Origin: Acholeplasmatales bacterium
GTDB taxonomy: Bacteria; Bacillota_I; Bacilli_A; Acholeplasmatales; Anaeroplasmataceae
Length of the DNA stretch: 5,144 nucleotides
Direction of reading: 5' to 3'
Assembly: GCA_017388605.1 (NCBI GenBank)
Contig: JAFPIE010000248.1
Span: 1-5,144 of the forward strand
Position 1 is the first letter of the stretch. Every line of letters begins with the position of its first letter. Both the position numbers and the translations under genes were made by a program. Below are positions 4,117 to 5,144 of the stretch, in pieces. The notes under the pieces were generated by a model. The model worked only from the letters and a program-made list of their open reading frames with translations. It made no database searches and was not told the DNA's origin.

Positions 4117-4139
4117 AAGAGGGTATTCCTTACCCTCTT
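4117..4139 (-). terminator. Intrinsic terminator of the hydrolase gene
   Basis: The minus strand forms a 9-bp stem from AAGAGGGTA (4131-4139) and TACCCTCTT (4117-4125) with a five-base loop, followed by a short T run (4115-4118). The stem includes the last sense codons and the stop codon of the hydrolase gene, so the terminator is embedded in the coding end. The short U tract suggests moderate strength. Confidence 0.65.
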
Positions 4140-4744
4140 ATATATGGATTATATAATTTTTCATTCTTTATAGTTGTTTTAGGACCATGTCCTGGGTATA
4201 CAATATAATCCTCCGGATAATAGTTTATAATTCGATTTAAGGATTTTAAAATATCTGTATAGGAGCCTGTTGGAAAATCTGTTCTACCACAAGATCCCAT
4301 AAATAGGGTATCTCCACTAAATACATAATTTAAAAAGCTAATACATATAGAGCCCTTTGTATGCCCCTTTGTATGTAATATTTTAAATTTATAGCCAATA
4401 AGATCTATTTCATCTAAATCATTTAATAAATGAACATTTAAATCTCCTATAGAATATGGGCATACTCTTCCAAACATATCATATAAGGATGCCAGACTAT
4501 CATATAAGGAATCACTATCTAGCTTATGAATATAAATAGGTAAATCTAGGAAATATTCGATTCCATCGATATGATCAATATGGGCATGAGTAATAAATAT
4601 AGCCTTTGGAATATAATTTTCCTTAATATATTTAGCTGCATCCTTATATCCTAAGCCTGGGTCTATAAGTACACATTCCTTTTTCTCATTCGATATAATA
4701 TAGCTATTGGTATCTAGTTGCCCTGTTGTTATACATTCGATCAT
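4130..4744 (-). CDS. Glyoxalase II-like metallo-beta-lactamase-fold hydrolase
   Basis: The 204-residue protein is a compact MBL-fold hydrolase of the small glyoxalase II-like group (YcbL type), a cytosolic enzyme that probably cleaves a thioester. The zinc ligands are all present: THAHIDHIDG (H53, H55, D57, H58), HTKGHTKGS (H128), FSGDTLF (D145) and YPGHGPKT (H186). The start TGQLDTNSYII...VLIDPGLG and the block MGSCGRTDFPTGSYTDILKSL (149-169) are typical of the group. It lacks the C-terminal substrate domain of full glyoxalase II, as usual for this subfamily. The frame is open six codons further to a TTG at 4760-4762, but that start has no ribosome site. The ATG at 4742-4744 gives the family's normal N-terminus, although its own site (GTGAG) is weak. 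No good promoter is seen upstream; the IS110 element begins roughly 80 bases away. The exact substrate is unknown. Confidence 0.93.
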   Translation of the reverse strand: MIECITTGQLDTNSYIISNEKKECVLIDPGLGYKDAAKYIKENYIPKAIFITHAHIDHIDGIEYFLDLPIYIHKLDSDSLYDSLASLYDMFGRVCPYSIGDLNVHLLNDLDEIDLIGYKFKILHTKGHTKGSICISFLNYVFSGDTLFMGSCGRTDFPTGSYTDILKSLNRIINYYPEDYIVYPGHGPKTTIKNEKLYNPYIRG

Positions 4745-4803
4745 AGTCTCACGTATAATCAATTTAGATAGGTTTGATATCTTATTGATTACTTTTCCTT
4801 TCT

Positions 4804-4840
4804 ACCTAACTTAATAGGTTATTTCATCTAATAATAGATG
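4804..4840. repeat. Two small adjacent inverted repeats near the IS110 left boundary
   Basis: ACCTA/TAGGT (4804-4808 with 4815-4819, six-base loop) is followed by CATCTA/TAGATG (4825-4830 with 4835-4840, four-base loop). IS110 elements often insert in or beside small dyads and may carry subterminal ones. These could belong to the target or to the element tip; the boundary is not visible in this window. Confidence 0.4.
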
Positions 4841-4847
4841 TTATAAT
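4839..4847 (+). promoter_or_regulatory. Extended -10 element of the IS110 left end (bridge RNA promoter)
   Basis: TGTTATAAT (4839-4847) is a perfect extended -10: TGN followed by consensus TATAAT. No good -35 lies 16-18 bases upstream (TTATTT at 4819-4824 at best). In IS621 a full promoter is known to form when the right end joins the left end in the excised circle, and the layout here would suit that. Transcription should begin at about 4854, at the foot of the first hairpin. Confidence 0.6.
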
Positions 4848-4853
4848 AAAATT

Positions 4854-5023
4854 GCACTGTGGATCCTTTTCTGTTTTCTTAAGGCAGTTATCCTGACCTT
4901 TTTGAGGTGATTATTACCACAGTCTTTTTTCTAATTTTGATTCGGTTAATTAAGGCTTAAATGACCTTTCATGAAGAACGTGAATAAATGATTAGAGAGC
5001 TTACTGTGGATGACCAAGTGCAC
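4854..5023 (+). ncRNA. Candidate IS110 bridge RNA (two-loop guide RNA)
   Basis: Established for IS621 and relatives: a non-coding RNA of about 177 nt from the left end guides the recombinase through a target-binding loop and a donor-binding loop. Seen here: hairpin 1 has a perfect 7-bp stem (ACTGTGG 4856-4862 with CCACAGT 4917-4923) and a probable inner stem (4863-4869 with 4904-4911). Hairpin 2 has a long stem (4927-4943 with 4982-4999; 16 pairs including three G-U, one mismatch, one bulge) around a 38-base loop. Both loops carry TTAAGGC (4879-4885, 4950-4956) followed by TGACCTTT (4894-4901, 4962-4969). TGCACT (4853-4858) can pair with AGTGCA (5017-5022), closing the whole. By analogy loop 1 would be target-binding and loop 2 donor-binding. 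The 3' end is an estimate, since there is no terminator before the recombinase gene. Confidence is good for a structured RNA and moderate for the exact ends. Confidence 0.65.
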
Positions 5024-5051
5024 AAATATTTATTTTTGGAGGTGTCATACT

Positions 5052-5144
5052 ATGACATATTATGTTGGCATAGATATTGCCAAGTATAAACACGACTGCT
5101 TCATTGCCGATGATTCAGGTTGTGTTATAAGAGATTCATTCTCT
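5052..5144 (+). CDS. IS110-family DEDD recombinase (transposase), N-terminal 31 codons
   Basis: The visible protein begins MTYYVGIDIAKYKHDCFIAD. YYVGIDIAK is the first strand of the RuvC-like DEDD domain of IS110 recombinases, with D8 the first catalytic acidic residue; KHDCFI is a common continuation in Firmicute members. The enzyme cuts and rejoins DNA as a tetramer with the bridge RNA, using a second-domain serine that is outside this window. The ATG at 5052-5054 follows a strong GGAGGTG site (5038-5044) with suitable spacing. The gene runs off the right edge, so whether the copy is intact cannot be told. Family assignment rests on the N-terminal motif and on the structured upstream region. 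Confidence 0.88.
   Translation, partial: MTYYVGIDIAKYKHDCFIADDSGCVIRDSFS

Follow-up and report, generated by a model that had tools for sequence, protein, structure and literature searches.

What does the non-coding region between the tip of an insertion element and its recombinase gene specify, and what does this element aim at? These questions are raised by the right-hand part of the window (by which is meant the whole 5,144-nucleotide stretch of Acholeplasmatales DNA analysed here). A first-pass annotation had proposed a bridge RNA at 4854..5023, and this proposal is supported by covariation, by the match to a model, and by the fit between guides and their partners. On the basis of sequence comparison, we consider it highly probable that positions 4854–5021 are the bridge RNA of an IS110-group element and that this RNA would be aimed at the Shine–Dalgarno sequence and ATG of a host gene, by the mechanism described below. 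Bridge RNAs and seekRNAs are already known; it is the target class, together with a feature of the left end, that appears to be unexpected.

The element, its ends, and its relatives

The recombinase gene starts at 5052 on the forward strand, and its first 31 codons (5052..5144) are present before it is cut by the end of the window; a ribosome-binding site for it, GGAGGTGT, can be read on the same strand at 5038..5045. The attribution of the element to IS110 is supported: a match to the domain PF01548 starts at 5052 (20 bits, short of the curated cut-off of 29; the window contains 31 residues of the protein), and P0005, a relative identical over those 31 residues, is a full-length recombinase with PF01548 and PF02371. 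A search with the recombinase N-terminus as the query listed 120 proteins, which mostly have 390 residues and nearly all of which have both domains. Across 13 aligned relatives, residues D8, E60, D103, D106, and S324 do not vary; going by the description of the IS110 family, we take them to be the DEDD tetrad and the serine. By this comparison, what the window carries is an IS110-type left end.

The comparison set comprised 82 sequences, namely the window, L001, and loci L002–L081, the latter being the best 80 of 147 from a scan of species genomes; among these best 80, the loci nearest to the window's recombinase have 86% and 82% identity. DNA-similarity searches gave one weak, useful record for plasmids and no match for phages; two pattern scans of viral_contigs found nothing, and a protein-alignment scan of the same set gave 6 loci with 33% identity, which were left out of the counts. 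L001 is NZ_OY725734.1 from Monoglobus pectinilyticus, a circle of 1563 bp that encodes a recombinase 35% identical to P0005 and that shares its RNA layout and motif set with the window's element. This record, annotated as plasmid 10 of M. pectinilyticus, resembles an excised circular IS110 element with its ends joined.

In the relatives, the left tip has the form core + NCGTAT[A/T]AT and variants, and the right end has the form TTGA[C/T]..ATAGTTA[G/A] + core. Tips were found in 62 of the 82 sequences (the pattern misses some that are visible by eye, such as those of L017 and L035) and right ends in 76. The core dinucleotide is mostly TC, CC, or TT; it is equal at the two ends in 42 of 55 elements, and its second base is equal in 53 of 55. 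Relatives with both ends, along with the uninterrupted L042 site, place the left tip of the window's element at the TC of 4749..4750 on the forward strand, which gives a long left end (LE) of 303 nt (4749..5051, +) in which the RNA precedes the gene; right ends were observed in relatives only. The RNA had been correctly assigned to the left end of the element, but the actual tip, about 105 nt before the RNA, had been missed.

Scarless insertion at a short core was found in the relative L042 only. The search covered 25 genomes, including that of L042, where the site is interrupted. A 400-nt query consisting of the two L042 flanks had a full-length match in 8 of them, which are sibling genomes, and 6 of these 8 are identical over the joint CATATATTTCACCTCTTTT, with one copy of the core and no duplication. 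The ATA/TAT sub-terminal repeat that flanks the donor site in the IS110 group, according to the part of PMC11208160 consulted, is also present: the window reads TC-ACG-TAT, and the right ends of most relatives read ATA-GTTAR-core, with some variants. Joining the ends in a circle gives TTGACT-17 nt-TATAAT or close to it, with at least 10 of 12 matching in 44 of the 52 relatives with both ends. The window has the TATAAT half of this junction promoter at its tip (4754..4759, +), and the complete promoter, with TTGACT at a 17-nt spacing, is predicted by taking the right half from relatives, the window's right end lying beyond its border. In genome G100, a mini-element (L151) of about 80 nt consists of a left tip and a right end only and is situated 5 nt before an ATG. 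Two slightly different patterns detected mini-elements in none of 200 genomes and in one of 249, and they were rejected as a common class.

The left end and the host gene

The element adjoins the start of a reverse-strand gene (4130..4744) for a metallo-beta-lactamase-fold hydrolase of 204 aa (PF00753). The ATG of this gene is the CAT at 4742–4744, and 4 nt, the left target flank (4745..4748, +), separate it from the core. This start agrees with that of a 71% orthologue (L100), which begins ATGATAGAA; a longer version starting with a TTG at 4762 was rejected, this position being inside the insertion element. Elsewhere in the window, at 1202–2934, a gene for a potassium-channel-like protein with an RCK domain is followed at once by one for a cyclic-nucleotide-binding protein, and the two are probably one operon.

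The left end contains a Shine–Dalgarno-like motif, AGAAAGGA, on the reverse strand at 4796..4803 and, between this motif and the host ATG, a hairpin on that strand at 4755..4792 (−9.2 kcal/mol, z −4.9). The insertion would leave the element between the Shine–Dalgarno sequence and the ATG of the host, and the reverse AGAAAGGA plus hairpin is probably a replacement that would take over as the ribosome-binding site of the host gene. A similar arrangement is known from phage T4, where genes 38 and 25 have split ribosome-binding sites in which, according to the part of PMC3014915 consulted, a hairpin between the Shine–Dalgarno sequence and the AUG shortens their spacing (from 22 to 5 nt and from 27 to 11 nt). 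In T4, however, the split site is part of the gene, whereas here it would arrive by means of a mobile element.

Another explanation, tentative yet deserving consideration, is that the RNA is indeed a bridge RNA but that the left-end motif and hairpin are unrelated to host translation (being, e.g., a signal for transposition or for binding of the recombinase) and that insertions ahead of genes are simply tolerated. This would be consistent with the finding that a reverse-strand, outward promoter in the left end is not supported (7.88 versus 7.68 in shuffled sequences), which means that any host transcript would need to run through the entire element. Moreover, the search for the motif tolerated one mismatch, so that its presence in 58 of 58 elements is partly built in, the exact AGAAAGGA occurring in just 36. 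However, CCTTTCT (with TCCTTTC), which reads AGAAAGG along the coding strand of the host gene, emerged without being sought as the most frequent 7-mer in the stretch from the tip to the RNA, occurring in 29 of 40 dereplicated left ends versus at most 9 in shuffles. The motif, furthermore, reads as a Shine–Dalgarno sequence on one strand alone, namely that of the host gene, and the base of the hairpin is 0–6 nt (median 2) from it in the 58 elements (L001, L036, L059, and L079 having been excluded beforehand). The hairpin itself has a mean energy of −10.4 kcal/mol, with z below −2 in 56 of the 58; in the 50 elements that have an ATG close to the core, it ends 6–19 nt ahead of this codon.

Tips without a recombinase also speak against this alternative. 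Eight tips without a recombinase match in the following ~1.5 kb were read, seven of these places also belonging to the 20 window-like tips discussed below. Seven are at the start of a gene and keep a Shine–Dalgarno-like motif (in a loose definition that includes CCTTCT and CCTTCC); the single tip not at a gene, L180, has no Shine–Dalgarno-like motif. L171–L175, L179, L182, L187, and L188 have no likeness to the left end beyond the tip pattern and were judged to be due to chance and kept off the relic count, although L188 has an ATG 4 nt away that opens 229 codons; L176, L185, L189, L190, L192, and L161 were excluded because there is too little sequence after the tip.

Structure of the conserved RNA

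A usable RNA motif was found upstream of the recombinase gene in 71 of the 82 sequences (in the other 11, it was not found or the sequence is too short), and 51 sequences were left after dereplication. In L002–L040 and the window, the order upstream of the gene is GCACTGTGGAT, an inner ACAG..CTGT hairpin, a Shine–Dalgarno-like stretch, and CCACAG, after which come a second long hairpin and then CAGTGC.

The window's RNA, of about 168 nt, would extend over 4854..5021 on the forward strand, and it contains the two long hairpins that had been claimed, the first with its 7-bp stem of ACTGTGG (4856–4862) and CCACAGT (4917–4923). By comparison with relatives, the target-binding hairpin is at 4857..4922 (+; stem 4857–4862/4917–4922, inner stem 4881–4884/4897–4900) and the donor-binding hairpin at 4927..4999 (+; outer stem 4927–4936/4990–4999, inner stem 4952–4955/4965–4968). 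A covarying closing stem had been overlooked: P1, in which GCACT (4854..4858, +) pairs with AGTGC (5017..5021, +). Four of its six counted pairs are changed on both sides, 89.7% of cells are paired, and there are 23 double-changed cells versus 4.2 in shuffles; P1 and the target stem compete for CTG.

Both hairpins covary, as had been suggested as a check. From 51 sequences, RNAalifold recovered, unprompted, the target stem and the inner stems of both hairpins, 9 of the 16 pairs having both sides changed somewhere. In the named stems, 98.0% of cells are paired versus 89.9% in shuffles (none of 500 reaches this value), and 9 of the 14 pairs are changed on both sides in the 51 relatives. The first hairpin is lost in the single-sequence minimum-energy fold, in which CCACAGT pairs instead with ACTGTGG at 5003–5009, and is restored by the comparison: all 51 aligned relatives pair CTGTGG with CCACAG, and 2 of the 6 pairs are changed on both sides. 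Since indels misalign the donor outer stem, it was tested by swapping partners, which gave 16.5 for a stem's own arms versus 13.6 (sd 0.29) for swapped arms, with a maximum of 14.3 in 200 swaps. The fold of 4854–5023 is equalled or bettered by 2 of 200 dinucleotide shuffles (z −2.75). The copy of ACTGTGG at 5003–5009 is the third and is situated close to the RNA's 3′ terminus; it is often TTGTGG in relatives, and no covarying partner was found for it. Its pairing with CCACAG was rejected, as 89.1% of cells are paired, yet there is no covariation (0.017 versus 0.027 shuffled).

The RNA thus has the two stem-loops with internal loops and the covarying stems of a bridge RNA. A covariance model (R1), made from 33 relatives with the window, L002, and L003 excluded, found the window at 4850–5023 (+) with 88.4 bits (E 1.7e-14), the runner-up match having 13.5 bits; this was another check that had been called for. 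With the 4227 families of Rfam, at E up to 1, the window has no match.

The RNA of the window is presumably transcribed. A promoter had been proposed at the foot of the first hairpin, and an extended −10 element, TGTTATAAT, can indeed be read ahead of the RNA at 4839..4847 (+), with TATAAT at 4842–4847, TG at 4839–4840, and a gap of 6 nt to G4854; it is absent, however, from the list given by a consensus promoter scan in which a −35 box was also required. A short inverted repeat, CATCTA/TAGATG, occupies 4825–4840, immediately before this −10 box, and other inverted repeats occur at the equivalent place in some relatives (e.g., AAGTATATC/GATATACTT in L008).

Several of these features are shared with the IS621/IS110 bridge RNA as described in the part of Durrant 2024 (PMC11208160) consulted. 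There too, the RNA is in a long left end and has a similar length (177 nt versus about 168 nt in the window), the target loop precedes the donor loop, the 5′ side of each loop is for the bottom strand and the 3′ side for the top strand, the core is short, and a promoter spans the circle junction. Unlike IS621, for which the same text describes REP elements as targets, the element studied here would have as its target a ribosome-binding site with its start codon; it has, in addition, the reverse Shine–Dalgarno sequence and hairpin in the left end and an extra −10 box right before the RNA. Moreover, a separate IS621-type 5′ stem-loop before the target loop is absent from the window's RNA, the 5′ and 3′ ends of which pair with one another, the conserved RNA opening at once with its closing stem and target loop; the 5′ stem-loop is taken as a trait of the IS621 consensus and not of the bridge RNA class. 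Siddiquee 2024, in the part consulted (PMC11187229), likewise attributes to the IS110 type a non-coding region upstream of the gene with a target-selecting RNA, the seekRNA of IS1111/IS110; the form reported there has 70–100 nt, versus the about 168 nt predicted here, and no Shine–Dalgarno target is mentioned in that text. More generally, no report of Shine–Dalgarno targeting was found in the mainly open-access literature searched, including the text of PMC11208160 and PMC11187229.

Guides and the probable targeting of translation starts

In the proposed mechanism, the ends of the RNA would close on each other, the first hairpin would be the target-binding loop, and the second would be the donor-binding loop. 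The target guides would pair with the translation start of the reverse-lying host gene, the left one (LTG) with the start codon and spacer and the right one (RTG) with the Shine–Dalgarno sequence, while the donor guides (LDG and RDG) would pair with the element's own ends. The recombinase would bind this RNA and join donor and target at the core TC.

The genomic context of the relatives points to such a target class. Of the 59 loci in which a tip is preceded by 150 nt or more of left flank, 36 have, 3–7 nt to the left of the core, a divergent ATG that opens at least 60 codons (versus 1.7% of random places), and 43 have any start codon at 0–9 nt (versus 6.3% in the control); in 16, L002 included, no start codon at the core opens an ORF of 60 codons. 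The CAT is 4 nt from the core in 14 of 49 loci and 5 nt from it in another 14. At 18 of 20 window-like tips (identity 73–100% over stretches of 23 to 396 nt), a start codon 4–5 nt away, ATG in 17 cases and GTG in 1, opens at least 159 codons, and many of these ORFs continue to the border of the retrieved sequence; L140, which is the same place as L002, and L154 depart from this pattern. A 21st such tip, L139, also fits, making 19 of 21. The right flank shares a run of at least 5 with the Shine–Dalgarno consensus in 54 of 63 cases versus 3.7% in the control. Given that the loci tested are surviving insertions, this preference might be attributed to selection against harmful insertions rather than to guided targeting; we regard this as very improbable because the position is so fixed and because the right guide fits the particular Shine–Dalgarno variant of its own site.

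This last point comes from the RTG, TGAGGTGA in the window (4903..4910, +), which spells a Shine–Dalgarno sequence, GAGGTGA; across the clade, it takes the forms GAGGTGA, AAGGAGA, GGAGAAA, GAAAGG, and others. The target loop was readable in 59 sequences, and the test was made on the 45 distinct ones of the 47 with a right flank. Against the core and right flank, the RTG matches at 7.66 of 9 positions versus 5.07 when permuted (sd 0.20), which corresponds to a z of 13 at one register, with no other among the 8 registers exceeding 2. Strict pairing over the first seven positions is 0.98, 1.00, 1.00, 1.00, 0.93, 0.89, and 0.87; the perfect run from the core is at least 7 in 33 of the 45 sites and shorter in 12, one of which has none. 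Examples of guides and sites are GGAGAAA with TTTCTCC, GGAGTTGA with TCAACTCC, and GAAAGG with CCTTTC. For the window's element, the right end of which lies outside the window, the predicted right target is ACCTC after the core TC. The 71% orthologue of the host gene has AAAGAGGTG before its ATG, which matches what the window's RTG would read; AGGTG is close before the start only in L100, L103, and L108 of 12 orthologues, the rest having another motif or no clear one.

The donor guides also fit their own partners far better than permuted ones, at one register, the doubtful tip of L036 having been retained in these counts and in those of start codons. The RDG, which varies along with the left tip, matches its reverse complement at 5.77 of 7 positions versus 4.69 (sd 0.11; n = 41), which was reached in none of 500 permutations, as in the pairs ACGTGA-TCACGT, ACGAGA-TCTCGT, CGAGG-CCTCG, and GCAAGG-CCTTGT. 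In the window, the RDG ACGTGA (4978..4983, +) pairs over six positions with the right donor site TCACGT at 4749..4754 (+). Similarly, the LDG matches the right end at 7.27 of 8 positions versus 6.80 (sd 0.05; n = 45; 0 of 500 permutations), with pairs such as GTTAGTT-GTTAGTC, GTTAATT-GTTAATC, and GCTAGTT-GCTAGTC. The partner of the window's LDG, GGTTAATT (4944..4951, +), should be a right end ..GTTAATC / ATAGTTAA-TC outside the window.

For the LTG, the signal is weak: 5.61 of 11 versus 4.85, above all 500 permutations (n = 49). Its z of 4.8 is the best of 10 registers tried, a neighbouring register having 2.9, and the best register mirrors the LDG symmetrically. In the window, the LTG (4871..4880, +) has a partial match to the left flank, with 4 Watson–Crick and 3 wobble pairs out of 9, as judged by eye. 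In the relatives, the first loop covaries with the target, weakly for the LTG, and the second with the donor. The guide role in the first-pass annotation is borne out to this extent, although two things had escaped it: the Shine–Dalgarno sequence spelled by the target guide and the one that accompanies a hairpin in the left end.

That the conserved RNA is instead a structured leader controlling the recombinase gene is very improbable, for although it is directly upstream of that gene, the ribosome-binding site of which begins 16 nt past the RNA, its loop bases track the element ends and insertion site of each copy, as those of a leader would not.

The recombinase gene's own ribosome-binding site may be relevant to targeting in another way. 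In 36 elements with a guide ending in GA and with GGAGG in this site, GGAGGTGA is found there in none, and in 23 of the 36, GGAGGTG is followed by a different base. This absence could reflect the avoidance of self-insertion.

Beyond the bridge RNA itself, we think it reasonably probable that the window's element belongs to a clade of bridge-RNA transposons, in Firmicutes and Mollicutes-like bacteria, that is programmed against translation starts, with a guide spelling a Shine–Dalgarno sequence and the context of a start codon and with a left end that installs a portable, split ribosome-binding site (Shine–Dalgarno sequence, hairpin, and host ATG). Very many genes would then be possible targets, the gene on which the element lands would stay translatable, and, after decay of the element, the tip could persist as the new ribosome-binding site of that gene. 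If this is true, an RNA-guided mobile element reads a functional signal of its host, the ribosome-binding site, and brings with it a built-in repair, which would account for the ability of an insertion sequence to occupy many gene-adjacent sites at low cost. The natural variation in guides within this clade of bridge recombinases would also make it a suitable system in which to study the evolution of new targets by bridge RNAs.
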